Origin: Fontibacillus panacisegetis
GTDB taxonomy: Bacteria; Bacillota; Bacilli; Paenibacillales; Paenibacillaceae
Assembly (NCBI RefSeq): GCF_900102215.1
Contig: NZ_FNBG01000015.1
Location: 1 to 64,000, forward strand
Reading direction: 5' to 3'
DNA length: 64,000 bases
The stretch's first letter is position 1. Each line of letters starts with the position of its first letter. This document shows, piece after piece, positions 55,161 to 64,000 of the stretch. The notes under the pieces are model-generated. The model was given only the letters and a program-made list of their open reading frames with translations, was not told the DNA's origin and searched no databases. A program made the translations under genes and the position numbers.

Positions 55161-55173
55161 GAGTTTTTTAAGA

Positions 55174-55395
55174 TTACTTTCCGTCGTGACGCTTGGATAT
55201 ATTCGTCTGACCAAGAATATAGTCAATACTAACGCCGTAATATTCGGATAATTTAATTAACACAGAGCTCGGCACATCCAAATTCCCATTTTCGTATCTG
55301 GAATATGTTGCTTGAGAGATATTTAGATAATGTGCCAGTTGTTGTTGATTCAAATCTCTGTCCTCACGCAAACCGCGTATTCTTTTGTACATCAT
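55174..55395 (-). CDS. XRE-family repressor, copy 1
   Basis: 73 residues, all one HTH_3 domain: RIRGLREDRDLNQQQLAHYL, NISQATYSRYENGNLDVPSS and VLIKLSEYYGVSIDYILGQT. It is nearly identical to the next gene upstream. ATG 55395 or 55392 can be used; GGGTGATTC is the only site. It is expected to bind the dyads directly upstream (55419-55464). Confidence 0.88.
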   Translation of the reverse strand: MMYKRIRGLREDRDLNQQQLAHYLNISQATYSRYENGNLDVPSSVLIKLSEYYGVSIDYILGQTNISKRHDGK

Positions 55396-55418
55396 GAATC
55401 ACCCAAGCTCAGTTTAAG

Positions 55419-55464
55419 ATATGCGGAAACTGCATATCGGATTTTATGCGGTTTTCGCATAAAA
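55419..55464. promoter_or_regulatory. Paired operators upstream of XRE copy 1
   Basis: ATATGCGGAAACTGCATAT (55419-55437) and TTTTATGCG-N5-CGCATAAAA (55442-55464, perfect 9-bp arms) share the half site ATGCG. They lie 24-69 bases upstream of the gene and are repeated almost exactly before copy 2. Confidence 0.75.
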
Positions 55465-55511
55465 TCTATTTGTATAAAGCTTTTGAATTTTTCAGGACTC
55501 TAATTTCAAGA

Positions 55512-55730
55512 TTATTTTCCGTTGGATCGCTTGGAGTTATTCGTCTGACCAAGAATGTAGTCGATGCTAACGTCGTAAAATTCGGATAATTTTATCAATA
55601 CAGTACTTGGTACATCCAAGTTCCCGCTCTCGTATCGGGAATAGGTTGCTTGAGAGATGTTCAGATGATCCGCCAGTTGTTGTTGCGTCAGGTCCCTGTC
55701 TTCACGCAAATCGCGTATCCTCTTGTACAT
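55512..55730 (-). CDS. XRE-family repressor, copy 2
   Basis: 72 residues: RIRDLREDRDLTQQQLADHL, NISQATYSRYESGNLDVPST and VLIKLSEFYDVSIDYILGQT. It differs from copy 1 at about a dozen positions. It lies in the same orientation, 338 bases away, and carries its own pair of operators. The recognition helix (SQATYSRYE) is the same, so both proteins should bind the same sites and cross-regulate. Confidence 0.88.
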   Translation of the reverse strand: MYKRIRDLREDRDLTQQQLADHLNISQATYSRYESGNLDVPSTVLIKLSEFYDVSIDYILGQTNNSKRSNGK

Positions 55731-55756
55731 AGTGTATCACCCAAACTAAGTTTAAA

Positions 55757-55802
55757 ATATGCGAAAAATGCATATTGAGTTTTATGCAGTTTTCGCATAA
55801 AA
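55757..55802. promoter_or_regulatory. Paired operators upstream of XRE copy 2
   Basis: ATATGCGAAAAATGCATAT (55757-55775) and TTTTATGCA-N5-CGCATAAAA (55780-55802) repeat the pair found before copy 1, with identical spacing (second begins 23 bases after the first). The 76 bases beyond lead to the divergent gene at 55879, so the sites may repress both. Confidence 0.75.
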
Positions 55803-55878
55803 TATATTTATATGGAAAGTACTGGATGGTTTTGGATTCAATGATGTTGTTGATCTATTTCTACAAGGGGGAATTAGA

Positions 55879-56391: not shown

Positions 56392-56425
56392 TTGTTTCAC
56401 GTACTTCGTGAATATGACGTTATAG
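56392..56425 (+). repeat. attC-like right end and cassette-type core, left boundary of module 1
   Basis: A small hairpin TTCACG-N5-CGTGAA is followed by TATGACGTTATAG; the core GTTATAG is at 56419-56425. Its last bases are complementary to TATAAC at 57201-57206, the first bases of the structured element that ends module 1. The 5' half of a full attC is not seen here. Confidence 0.4.
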
Positions 56426-56530
56426 GAAATCGACGAAATAATAAAAAATACTATGAGAATACTGAACTATAAGTATGATAAAATCAAGATAGGAAAAAGA
56501 ATTGGGAAGAATTTGTAGGAGGTAGAACGA

Positions 56531-56788
56531 ATGAAATGGCAAGAAGTTAGAGAACTGTTCCCTGATCAATTTGTTCTGGTTTCCATACTTAATTATCATG
56601 AGGAGGGCAACAAAAAAATAGTAGATGAAGTTGCTCCGATTCGTACTATATCAGAACAAGATGCTAATAAAGAATTTTTTCAAGCAGAGCCTGGGAGTTT
56701 GGTGTACCATACTTCAAATCAAGATTTTGTGATCCATCTTCGTCGGGACCCATTAATGAGAGTGAGACGTAGTAGTAATGAAAATTAA
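56531..56788 (+). CDS. Hypothetical protein, partner of the retropepsin-like gene
   Basis: 85 residues, ATG 56531 after a strong GTAGGAGGTAG. Sequence MKWQEVRELFPDQFVLVSIL and NYHEEGNKKIVDEVAPIRTI, with a late YHTSNQDFVIHLRRDPLMRV. No domain was recognised by name, but genes of this size and start regularly precede small retropepsin-like proteases. It overlaps the protease gene by 11 bases, so translation is coupled. It may be a substrate or adaptor; the function is unknown. Confidence 0.72.
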   Translation: MKWQEVRELFPDQFVLVSILNYHEEGNKKIVDEVAPIRTISEQDANKEFFQAEPGSLVYHTSNQDFVIHLRRDPLMRVRRSSNEN

Positions 56789-57149
56789 CTATGATGGACA
56801 ATTAATTACGACGTCGCTTACTGTTACATTCAGAGAAAGAGTATTGAGAATAGATGATGTGATTATAGATACAGGGTCCTCACATACTATAATTAGTCCT
56901 GATATTTTGGAGGAAATCGGTGTGACCTACGAAATAGGGGATTCTATATATGAAGCATACGGGATTGGCGGAAGCGTTCCTTTCTACACAAAAATTATGG
57001 ACAGGATTGAAATAGGTACAAGAAGCATTGAAAATATAGAAATAGATGTTGGTATACTGCCAAAGGACCATAAAGGGTTACTTGGATTGGATATTCTTAA
57101 ACAACAAAACTTTATTATTGACTTGAAAACATTAGAACTACGTACTTAA
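56778..57149 (+). CDS. Retropepsin-like aspartic protease
   Basis: 123 residues, soluble. The catalytic DTGSS (in VIIDTGSSHTIIS, about 34-38) and a second strand VPFYTKIMDRIEIGTRSIEN lead to the conserved GLLGLDILKQ turn (the hydrophobic-GLD motif). This is a single-lobe aspartic protease that works as a dimer, like retroviral or Ddi1-type enzymes. It is coupled to the 85-residue gene upstream. Both sit between attC-like elements (56419 and 57200). Confidence 0.82.
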   Translation: MKINYDGQLITTSLTVTFRERVLRIDDVIIDTGSSHTIISPDILEEIGVTYEIGDSIYEAYGIGGSVPFYTKIMDRIEIGTRSIENIEIDVGILPKDHKGLLGLDILKQQNFIIDLKTLELRT

Positions 57150-57199
57150 CAAATGGATTGAATGAAATTAATAAGTGGAATCGGAAAGTCGCCGACATC

Positions 57200-57348
57200 A
57201 TATAACAATACATCTAGGCTGCGGGGCATTCGCCCCTTGGTTGTCAGGTGTGAAAGCATAGAAGAAAGAATATTCAGACAACACACGGCCCGACCTAAGA
57301 TAAGAGTTATCTAAGGTCGGGTCGCGTCGTAAATGCGCAACGTTAGCT
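57200..57348 (+). repeat. attC-like structured element between modules 1 and 2
   Basis: Starts ATATAAC (57200-57206) and ends GCGCAACGTTAGCT with core GTTAGCT (57342-57348). Inside are GGGGC-ATTC-GCCCC, a TTGTC/GACAA pair, and CCCGACCTAAGATAA pairing with TTATCTAAGGTCGGG (one mismatch). The outer RYYYAAC/GTTRRRY-like ends and imperfect internal stems are the features of attC sites, but classical L boxes were not resolved by eye. Confidence 0.45.
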
Positions 57349-57520
57349 AAAACCAACCAAAAACATAAAAAAACCATAGATCAACATTTGACCCATGGAT
57401 TCGTATGTCATTTTTTTTCAAGACCTTATTCAACATCATAACAAATCAGTAATTATAAGTCTATATTTTTTTTGAGGGTTAATTTACCATATTGTTATAA
57501 GACGAATGGAGATGGTAAAA

Positions 57521-58303
57521 ATGCTCAAGGAAATATTTGTTGATCGTGCAATGACTTATGAATATCCCCCTGATGGGGCGACAATACCGATTATAGACCC
57601 GTATGATGGATGTACAATTGGATGTCCTTACTGTTTCCAATTAGACGATGAGACTTGGAATACTAACTTGTATGTTAAACTTAATATTTCAGATGTTTTG
57701 CAAAAAGAACTTATTCAATGGAATAAAGAAGATATTGTGTACTTGGGTAGTAAGTGTGATCCTTATATGGAGATAGAACGGAAATACCAATTAACAAGAA
57801 AATGTTTACTTGAATTAAGTAAGTTAAATTTGAAATGTATGGTTACAACTAAAGCCGGGTCAAAACTTATTTTTAGAGATATTGATGTAATAAAACCTAT
57901 GGGGAATAAATTTACTTTACTTTTAGGATTATCTAATCTACAACAGTTGAGTAAGATCGATGATTATACTCTTATGAGTAATATACAGACAGCAAATCAG
58001 TTACACCGAATGGGAATTACTGTATGGGTATTTATTACTCCGATTTTACCTGGTATTACAGATGTAGATTTAATGATTAACGCTATAGATCAGGACATTC
58101 CTGTATCTTTAGATAAGGTTAGATTAAAACGAAACACTAGACCAGCACTAACGTTGGAACGTTTCATCGACAATCATTACCCTCATTTAGCTAAGACTTA
58201 CAAAGACATAATATATAATAATACGGATATTTACTATGAAGATATGAAAGAAAAGTGGGGTAAAACTGAGAGAGTAAAGTTTGTATTCGAGTCGAGTAAT
58301 TAA
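57521..58303 (+). CDS. Radical SAM protein, spore photoproduct lyase-like family
   Basis: 260 residues. ATG 57521 is chosen because GGAGATGG sits just upstream; ATG 57506 has no site. The 4Fe-4S motif is CTIGCPYC (CxxxCxxC) within IIDPYDGCTIGCPYCFQ. The start DRAMTYEYPPDG, IVYLGSKCDPYMEIERKYQL and TRKCLLELSKLNLKCMVTTK segments match the SPL/Rv2578c-type radical SAM group. The role is unknown; such proteins modify DNA, RNA or peptides. It is the only gene of module 2, between attC-like elements, and is richer in A/T than its flanks. Confidence 0.83.
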   Translation: MLKEIFVDRAMTYEYPPDGATIPIIDPYDGCTIGCPYCFQLDDETWNTNLYVKLNISDVLQKELIQWNKEDIVYLGSKCDPYMEIERKYQLTRKCLLELSKLNLKCMVTTKAGSKLIFRDIDVIKPMGNKFTLLLGLSNLQQLSKIDDYTLMSNIQTANQLHRMGITVWVFITPILPGITDVDLMINAIDQDIPVSLDKVRLKRNTRPALTLERFIDNHYPHLAKTYKDIIYNNTDIYYEDMKEKWGKTERVKFVFESSN

Positions 58304-58338
58304 TAATTATGATAGTATTTCGAGAAGCAGTTGACTTC

Positions 58339-58454
58339 AGCTAACATCACATTCACGCAGCGGAAGAAACATATTCACTACGAGCCTAAGTCTGTCGACC
58401 CGTTCGCGTTGCTCACTTAAGCCTCTCGGGTTCGTAGATACACTAACGTTAGAT
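58339..58454 (+). repeat. attC-like structured element ending module 2
   Basis: Starts AGCTAAC (58339-58345), which is perfectly complementary over 7 bases to the core GTTAGCT at 57342-57348 where the module begins. It ends CACTAACGTTAGAT with core GTTAGAT (58448-58454), a perfect GTTRRRY. Inside, CTACGA pairs with TCGTAG, and CCTAAGT with ACTTAAG. Confidence 0.45.
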
Positions 58455-58604
58455 GAAATGACCTGAAGTGTTTGCAGAGAGAGGAGTACTCAATGAAATC
58501 CCCAATTCAATGGCTAGGAGTACGAATATGAAATCTATAATACATACGGTCAAGATTATAAAAATCCAGACATTCAAGCGCATAAAGCAGACCGTCATTC
58601 CTTG

Positions 58605-58889
58605 TCAAAGAAGGTATGATGGACACCCGGAAAGCAATGCTTCCTCCAATTGCAGCGCCTCTTCATGCCTTTTCCGGCAGCAATCGAAAAACAGATTATG
58701 GCAGACCCGTAAAAGTCAATATTTTATGTTAGGCATATCCTTATCCAGTGCCAGCATTGCCGTATAGAACGTGTCGCGGATCAGGTCTTCGGCCATATGA
58801 TAATTCCTGCAAAGGGAATAGGCGTAAAGATAGACCTGTTTGGAATACAGACGGTATACTTCGTCCAAAGCATCTTTCTTAACGCACAT
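58605..58889 (-). pseudogene. ECF sigma factor, truncated and with an in-frame stop
   Basis: On the minus strand ATG 58889 begins MCVKKDALDEVYRLYSKQVY, then YAYSLCRNYHMAEDLIRDTF and YTAMLALDKDMPNIKY (sigma region 2), and meets TGA at 58716 where a Trp codon is usual. Reading on in the same frame gives LLRVCHNLFFDCCRKRHEEA and LQLEEALLSGCPS before a stop at 58605. Region 4 is absent. An SPL-type membrane helix frame follows up to the attC-like end. Confidence 0.7.
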
Positions 58890-63115: not shown

Positions 63116-64000
63116 TTAGTAAATAATTTCCTTTAAGCAGTCCTGTACATAATCCGGAGCTGCTTTTTTCATTTGCTCTACAGTATGCAAATATCGCTGA
63201 GTCGTGTTGATATGCGCGTGTCCTAACGTTTCCTGCACTTGCTGAAGTGAAGCTCCTCCCAGCAAGGCCAAAGTTGCATTGGTATGCCGCAGCCAGTGGG
63301 GCGTTAGCTTTTTCGTAATCCCACTTCTTTCTCCGGCTTTACGTATTATGCGTTCAATTTGTCTAGTAGAAATAGGAAACAGTCTAAGCGTACCAGGCGG
63401 TTCCATACCCCCGGAAAGACTCCTCGCATATTCGGCAAATATTTCCCATAAATGCTGGGGGACCTTTACTTCTCTCGTTCTTCCTCCTTTTGTATAATGA
63501 AGCGTCAGCCAAACACTCGATTCCAACGGATCTGTGTGGAAGTCTTTCCAGTATATAGAGTTCAATTCAGACACTCGCAAACCAAGCAATACTAACGACA
63601 GCCCCATCAAATAATTCCTTTGACTCTGCTGCTGCAGATCCTTAATCAACAACCCTACTTCCTTTTTGGTTAAAAAATTCCGATGGCTAGTCACCTGAAT
63701 CACCGGCAAGCGTACACTCGATGTGGGGTTCCTTTCAAAAAAGCCTACGTTGCTGTCACTCCCCCACTTATACAACGATTTCAGCGGGGCAATGAAAGCG
63801 GCGATGCTGGCCGGCGACAATGCGCGCTTGGAAGTGAATTTCTCCCGCTGCTGAAGGTACATTTTAAAGGCCTCAATCTCTCTCCATGTTACCGAATCAA
63901 GCTTCTTGAACTCGATAAACTCCCGAAAGCAATGAATAGCCCTCAAGTAGCTTCTCCTCGTATTATCTGCTGTACAACAGGTGCTTACAAACATGTTCAC
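63116..64000 (-). CDS. Tyrosine recombinase (XerC/D-like), 5' end probably beyond window
   Basis: At least 294 residues; the frame reaches the last base of the window, so the start is not certain. N-terminal SAM-like core-binding domain (NTRRSYLRAIHCFREFIEFK), then the catalytic domain with Arg in LRVSELNSIYW, Lys in HYTKGGRTREV, HxxR in LTPHWLRHTNATLALLGG, and LGHAHINTTQRYLH with the nucleophile Tyr. It has no IntI-specific insertion that can be recognised. It could be a phage/ICE integrase or a Xer-like enzyme. It sits 4.7 kb from the attC-like elements. Confidence 0.85.
   Translation of the reverse strand: MNMFVSTCCTADNTRRSYLRAIHCFREFIEFKKLDSVTWREIEAFKMYLQQREKFTSKRALSPASIAAFIAPLKSLYKWGSDSNVGFFERNPTSSVRLPVIQVTSHRNFLTKKEVGLLIKDLQQQSQRNYLMGLSLVLLGLRVSELNSIYWKDFHTDPLESSVWLTLHYTKGGRTREVKVPQHLWEIFAEYARSLSGGMEPPGTLRLFPISTRQIERIIRKAGERSGITKKLTPHWLRHTNATLALLGGASLQQVQETLGHAHINTTQRYLHTVEQMKKAAPDYVQDCLKEIIY

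Follow-up and report, generated by a model that had tools for sequence, protein, structure and literature searches.

A two-cassette array in Fontibacillus panacisegetis as the probable satellite of a chromosomal integron-like platform with an I2-less recombinase

In sedentary chromosomal integrons of the Vibrio type, small cassettes are separated by attC sites with the order R''-L''-L'-R' and a G/TT core, and an attI-type site lies beside the recombinase gene. The first bases of an integron cassette and the left end of its own attC belong together. The Bacillota system described here shares this site order, core, cassette size, and attI-type site, but its recombinase lacks the I2 domain and often carries an extra N-terminal domain, and its recombinase gene is co-oriented with the cassettes whereas the Vibrio-type gene is divergent. 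In this last respect it resembles the integrons of Treponema, in which the recombinase gene is transcribed towards attI, in cassette direction; the Treponema integrases themselves grouped with the IntI of Blastopirellula and others, according to the excerpted text of a 2013 survey (PMC3607928). IntI is recognized by its extra domain, both in papers and by IntegronFinder, as excerpts of two sources state (PMC9668308; PMC2426708). By the IntI criterion, only one complete integron and a few CALINs were counted in Firmicutes in the excerpt of a 2022 survey (PMC9024848). Among the titles listed from the open-licence PMC literature, no description of this recombinase or of Paenibacillus cassette arrays was found.

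The window, by which we mean the whole stretch of 64,000 nucleotides analyzed here (contig NZ_FNBG01000015.1, positions 1 to 64,000), contains two gene cassettes on its plus strand. Three ACGTTA cores, with the core G at 56419 (GTTATAG), 57342 (GTTAGCT), and 58448 (GTTAGAT), delimit these modules exactly where the sequence-only reading had placed them, and its proposal that they form a cassette array of the integron type in Bacillota is supported by the results that follow. Cassette 1 (56420-57342) runs from the TT of its own core to the G of the next and contains two overlapping genes, while cassette 2 (57343-58448) contains one, all oriented with the structured element at their 3' end. The first gene of cassette 1 (56531-56788) encodes 85 amino acids, matched PDC-M08A in PADLOC (E 1.6e-20), and returned no match in a Pfam search; the second (56778-57149) encodes a 123-residue retropepsin-like aspartyl protease matching PDC-M08B (E 7.3e-39). 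A whole two-gene candidate phage-defence system, PDC-M08 (A and B), is hence carried within one cassette at 56531-57149. The gene of cassette 2 (57506-58303) encodes a radical SAM protein weakly similar to rSAM mobile pair protein B, scoring 29.1 bits on Pfam Radical_SAM (cut-off 29.5) and 81 bits on TIGR04470 (cut-off 410).

The attC-type site of cassette 1 (element 1, 57200-57348) comprises R'' at 57200-57206, L'' at 57212-57218, L' at 57328-57334, and R' at 57342-57348, and that of cassette 2 (element 2, 58339-58454) comprises R'' at 58339-58345, L'' at 58351-58357, L' at 58433-58439, and R' at 58448-58454. The L boxes, which had been left unresolved from the letters alone, were visible in the alignment for both elements, with imperfect pairing in both window copies (by eye, five of seven positions in element 1 and six of seven in element 2, a G-T included). 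The complementarity noted earlier between each module and its own element also held: in cassette 2, the first seven bases, GTTAGCT, and the R'' of its element, AGCTAAC, are exact reverse complements of each other, and the R'' of element 1, ATATAAC, is complementary to the start of cassette 1 with one mismatch in seven. Extended to nine bases, the match was 8/9 in both window cassettes (hand count). To the left, positions 56395-56425 correspond, judging from the sequence and the right ends of full sites, to the right half of an attC-like site (TTTCACG / CGTGAAT, spacer, core ACGTTATAG), probably left over from an upstream cassette since lost or from a secondary site. To the right, the beginning of a further cassette is found at 58448-58467 (GTTAGATGAAAT...); no further attC model match occurred in the window at E up to 0.1, and this start is probably likewise a remnant. 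With two attC sites and no integrase of the system nearby, the region 57200-58454 fits the definition of a CALIN (at least two attC sites, no such integrase), the difference being that the home arrays described below adjoin a recombinase.

Several other features surround the array. At 55166-55803, two adjacent small helix-turn-helix genes lie within a direct repeat (300 bases, 83% identity); a DUF6809 gene comes next, and parts of this block recur in the genomes of four relatives (G015, G012, G016, and G007). A 57-residue ORF matching sigma-70 region 2 (58716-58889), seemingly a gene fragment, lies beside the right-hand cassette remnant. A tyrosine recombinase gene of another, very divergent kind occupies 63116-64000 (a 322-residue open frame in the genome); it was rejected as the enzyme of the system, falling on a very long branch outside the group in the tree, and the attC site model returned no match on its contig from 60 to 79 kb (L047). 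An Rfam scan of the window returned no match.

Searched as plain DNA, elements 1 and 2 had 20 and 16 matches in the genome, their own copies included, with best non-self E values of 5e-21 and 2e-19. Matches outside the window all lay on the minus strand of a few contigs, mainly within one stretch of about 40 kb, and the right ends of the sites share ATACAAGAACGTTAT. With a covariance model built from 31 sites, this genome yielded 63 sites at E up to 0.01, and 36 of the 40 genomes of the genus proved to carry sites (the best 73 candidates scored per genome in both cases). Within the family, presumably Paenibacillaceae, attC-type sites were found in 147 of 197 genomes and in 16 of 19 genera with the best 10 to 14 candidates scored per genome. 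Copies of the structured elements are accordingly present in the same genome and in related ones, as the sequence-only reading required. Both window elements were matched by the model, element 1 at 106.8 bits and element 2 at 60.4 bits, each copy itself being among the training sites.

The sites have the architecture R''/R' (AAC/GTT), spacer, L''/L', and a variable inner part, that is, the paired R and L boxes and AAC/GTT core of integron attC, and L''/L' covary as pairs (ATTCACG/CGTGAAT or ATCTACG/CGTAGAT). Across the 31-site alignment, 90.6% of cells were paired and the covariation score was reached in 0 of 500 shuffles; across 129 sites from 14 relatives' loci, in an alignment fitted to the model, the figure was 90.8%, with two-sided changes in 13 of 17 pairs. 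When the bottom strand was folded alone in its integrated form, element 1 was more stable than shuffles (z -4.7) and element 2 was no better than shuffles (z +1.2), and the structural claim therefore rests on the many copies and not on these two. In the circular form, using its R' box, seven sites were folded: two of this genome, one each of Halanaerobacter, Brucepastera, Arundinibacter, and Runella, and window element 1. Six of the seven gave an R stem, an asymmetric spacer, an L stem, and a terminal part, and window element 1 formed the R stem only. In integron attC, extrahelical bases direct the choice of strand; bulges were present in single circular-form folds of chosen sites. The expectation that the bottom strand would fold as attC thus held for both stems in six of seven chosen sites, and within the window it held for the R stem of element 1 and failed for element 2 in its integrated form.

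The cassette interpretation was assessed from the complementarity between cassette starts and site ends. Among the 24 scorable cassettes of this genome (neighbor pairs among 41 right ends), the nine-base start was the perfect reverse complement of the left end of the cassette's own attC in 14, matching at 8.17 positions on average, whereas the same 9-mers compared with the next core gave 0/24 perfect matches and a mean of 6.75. Shuffles yielded at most six perfect matches, and the summed score was reached by none of 10,000. In 13 relatives' loci, the own-end match was perfect in 64 of 93 pairs (drawn from 118 of 129 matches) as against 7 of 93 for the next core, with a shuffle maximum of 14 in 5,000 shuffles. 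Cassette starts are complementary to their own R'', the arrangement that a circular intermediate entails. Cassette 1 was also found in three other species (G019, G005, and G011) at 87 to 90% DNA identity with unrelated neighbors each time, the homology beginning at the GTTA of one core and ending at the ACGTTA of the next; in G019 and G005, it is located in an array behind the recombinase. Partial matches occurred in G010, G034, G035, and G037 among others (best seven matches per genome scored). The anticipated presence of a module between different neighbors with borders at the core was therefore observed, between species and not between strains, and the cassette borders lie at the G/TT of the core. 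Array cassettes had a median of 595 nt between sites, and in 36 of 39 the longest ORF ran in the direction of the array (52 of 60 matches used). ORFs of the array cassettes in this genome (L038-L045) include those for GNAT, NUDIX, GrpB, ParE-toxin, and an AadA_C-domain protein, a content familiar from integron arrays. In G019 (L123), three 98-nt sites at an even spacing of 287 nt directly follow the recombinase and are possibly tandem gene-less mini-cassettes.

The absence of an IntI from the window, reported earlier, extended to the whole genome, where none exceeded the cut-off of 265 bits (the highest-scoring pieces, both from one gene, reached 94 and 87 bits). The suggested search for an IntI-like recombinase led to this gene (contig 41:354467-355183), the most IntI-like of the genome; it is related to IntI but of a different kind, heads the main array, and is transcribed in the same direction. 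This home copy is truncated within the SAM-like domain, matching only positions 122-366 of the 370-position family model, and by reading of the alignment is about 60 residues shorter than its nearest relatives, G002 and G005. The recombinase gene was found in 18 of 40 genus genomes, the present one included, and at 1e-60 in 75 of the 197 genomes of the family. Internal stops are frequent among these, and many copies either are truncated or carry stops. Loci were fetched for 16 of the 17 gene-bearing relatives (G027 left out), and 13 of these have at least four sites, all downstream of the recombinase and co-oriented with it; of the remainder, L117 and L131 stop close to the gene and contain no site, and a single site lies at the edge of L130. 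In the 12 loci with the stop located, the first attC site starts 305 to 898 nt after the recombinase stop. An attI-type core matching the left end of the first attC in eight or nine of nine bases was present in 11 of 14 loci, own included, and no convincing attI-type site was found in the other three. The attI-type site lies 27 to 164 nt after the recombinase stop in 10 of 13 relatives' loci and 413 nt after it in this genome, and occurs in two conserved settings, one ending gacgtgcagagataaggga. By position, these would represent the attI site that an integron has beside its recombinase gene.

Across the 197 family genomes, attC sites were present in all 75 with the recombinase compared to 72 of 122 without it (Fisher p 3e-13, indicative only since the genomes are related). 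In the genus scan, 17 of 18 recombinase-bearing genomes had attC, as did 19 of 22 without the gene; the one bearer without a site, G027, is 85% complete and in 450 contigs. Given the 72 attC-bearing family genomes with no recombinase match at 1e-60, either arrays persist without it or another enzyme acts on them.

By the tests that define IntI, the recombinase falls outside it. The spacing between the KDR and HxLRH motifs was 62 to 71 residues in all 76 members measured out of 80 loci and 64 to 72 in the 109 measured of 120 spirochaete-type proteins, while it was 101 to 108 in 60 of 78 measured viral-contig homologs. These homologs with long spacing presumably include IntI1. Among the matches listed from viral contigs, all 80 relatives align from residue 60 or later. 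The approximately 41-residue IntI-specific (I2) domain is absent, and three members scored 197 to 207 bits, in two pieces, on the IntI profile TIGR02249 (cut-off 265), compared to 522 and 490 bits for two Vibrio IntI used as positive controls. No canonical IntI exceeded the cut-off in any of the 197 family genomes (ten best candidates per genome scored), in a scan whose threshold left 14 control genomes silent and whose profile detects IntI in Vibrio and in one MAG. Canonical IntI was likewise absent from nine of ten checked genomes of array-bearing loci, the tenth, a MAG, having one on another contig. Since the defining domain tested for is absent, this is not an IntI integron. Searches requiring the IntI domain would be expected to miss the home recombinase. 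The Treponema primitia protein P0122 is also of the I2-less kind; the 2013 survey, in its excerpted text, placed no integron in this species (PMC3607928).

In the phylogeny, IntI formed one clade (95/99), and the new family together with some short viral recombinases lay around it without resolved order, a topology that allows IntI to have arisen within the new family; the N-terminal parts of the new family were trimmed off for this alignment. The XerD and XerC-like genes of this genome branched on long branches outside IntI and the new family (89/92), the point of difference from Xer recombinases, with which the catalytic fold is shared and whose archaeal structures VIA-align ranks first. The best Foldseek match of the structure model was integron integrase 2a3v. 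The closest curated profile is NCBIfam NF040815, 'site-specific tyrosine recombinase/integron integrase' (XerA-like), on which members scored 202 to 219 bits (cut-off 220) and by which some Halanaerobiales members are named at NCBI. It is a naming model whose cut-off a XerD also passes (228 bits), and it claims no cassette array. The home enzyme is a tyrosine recombinase related to IntI but lacking the I2 domain.

In many full-length members, roughly the first 80 residues bear the pattern IxGRRWxPxxKxWxIP, of which the two tryptophans are kept in at least 90% of 37 aligned members. Pfam HARP (PF07443) gave weak matches in 16 of these 37 at E up to 1 (best 4e-5), and member L079 scored 14.4 bits against a cut-off of 25. 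The SMARCAL1 HARP structure 4o66 was matched over positions 9-48 at E 0.06, which is noise level, a cytochrome P450 reaching a comparable 0.085. The N-terminus of the full structure model has the order strand-strand-helix-strand-strand-helix with good confidence; when predicted by itself, the domain was modeled poorly (pLDDT 45). Most matches in a structure search cover residues 83-345, and those reaching the N-terminus are lambda integrase (1z1b, 1z1g), so that an arm-binding domain of the lambda type is no less a candidate than HARP. A W-x6-9-W motif before the SAM-like domain was present in 11 of 18 genus proteins (hand count, a spurious match in L069 left out) and in 34 of the 39 scorable among 78 other proteins. 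G002 and G005, the closest relatives of the home gene, lack it, and it was not found in Brucepastera; all of these bear arrays, and either the motif is not required everywhere or those copies are degenerate. HARP binds forked DNA. We speculate that the possibly HARP-like N-terminal domain of many members, a candidate for reading folded DNA, might read folded attC.

Relatives of the recombinase occur in Bacillota, Spirochaetota, Bacteroidota, Nitrospinae, Nitrospirae, Thermotogae, archaea, and others (best 80 of 584, named genomes). Behind the gene, the attC site model was strong in Paenibacillus, Saccharibacillus, and Cohnella and weak elsewhere. A model-free test, counting chains of exact nine-base start/end pairs, was applied to 51 loci with at least 1.5 kb downstream, with upstream flanks and shuffles as controls, as the pattern is its own reverse complement. 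Outside the family, downstream chains of at least four were found in 5 of 40 loci, each exceeding the 500 shuffles of its own locus (Halanaerobacter 4, Brucepastera 5, Arundinibacter 6, a Runella MAG 5, and a marine MAG 5), and chains of at least three in 11 of 40 loci compared to 0 of 33 upstream flanks. Among 500 shuffles, chains of three arose in L174 (two), L202 (one), and L187 (one), and chains of four in L169 (three; observed six). No such chain was found in the other 29 loci (1.5 to 8 kb searched downstream), which indicates that genes of this family do not necessarily sit at the head of an array. In Bacteroidota, Spirochaetota, and Halanaerobiales, relatives of the recombinase thus precede cassette chains.

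We conclude that the window very probably holds a satellite CALIN of two cassettes, whose home is a chromosomal integron-like platform with an I2-less recombinase. Such a platform would comprise, in order, the recombinase gene, an attI-type site, and a co-oriented cassette array. The recombinase would bind the hairpin of the single-stranded attC bottom strand, cut at the core, and excise cassettes as circles, which could then be inserted at attI or at other attC sites; position, co-occurrence, and kinship all point to this function. As the home gene is truncated, the arrays in this genome may be static unless another enzyme acts. Truncation also speaks for an ordinary CALIN, one whose cassettes came from a canonical IntI integron, in another genome or since lost, and whose neighboring recombinase is a bystander. 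That the gene is broken in several relatives too, that 72 family genomes have sites without it, and that a few CALINs were reported in Firmicutes genera in the survey excerpt (PMC9024848) all accord with such an origin. Nevertheless, no IntI exceeds the cut-off in the family genomes or in nine of the ten array-bearing genomes checked, and the recombinase precedes the arrays in 13 loci, with the attI-type site starting after its stop; we consider a bystander role improbable.

Xer genes are, to our knowledge, near-universal, whereas the arrays go with a dedicated gene (75/75) and the attI-type site adjoins that gene. This argues against the sites being moved by the housekeeping XerC/XerD, which appears very unlikely even though the genome encodes XerD (351 bits, cut-off 329.6) together with a XerC-like gene that falls short of its own cut-off, and phage CTXphi is said to use host XerCD in a related reaction (excerpt of PMC4792948). 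Least credible are immobile, dispersed hairpin repeats or terminators between genes. The elements are indeed intergenic, structured, and at gene 3' ends, and element 2 folds no better than shuffles; but a terminator leaves unexplained both the nine-base own-end match (14/24 and 64/93 vs. 0/24 and 7/93 for the next core) and the same module elsewhere with core borders, by which this account is already contradicted.

The I2-less platform, as we interpret it, would work like an integron and yet fails the IntI test. Compared to the 2022 survey, it is marked by attC-type sites in 147 of the 197 genomes scanned from a single Bacillota family and by an array-head recombinase without I2. An excerpt of one paper poses a chicken-and-egg paradox, namely how selection could have favored I2 in advance of attC, or attC in advance of I2 (PMC4792948). 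An I2-less family beside attC arrays, near IntI in the tree, renders this paradox directly testable and bears on the co-evolution of IntI and attC. On a broader reading, to which we give about an even chance, there is a second widespread integron lineage in Bacillota, Bacteroidota, and Spirochaetota, with recombinase homologs also in archaea and other phyla, in which I2-less recombinases handle folded attC, many via a HARP-like N-terminal domain, and from which IntI arose by gaining I2. Its likelihood is lowered by those members that bear arrays but lack the N-terminal motif; if true, it would resolve the question of whether attC or its recognition domain came first. The system also opens a pool of cassette genes, including the two-gene phage-defence candidate in the window.
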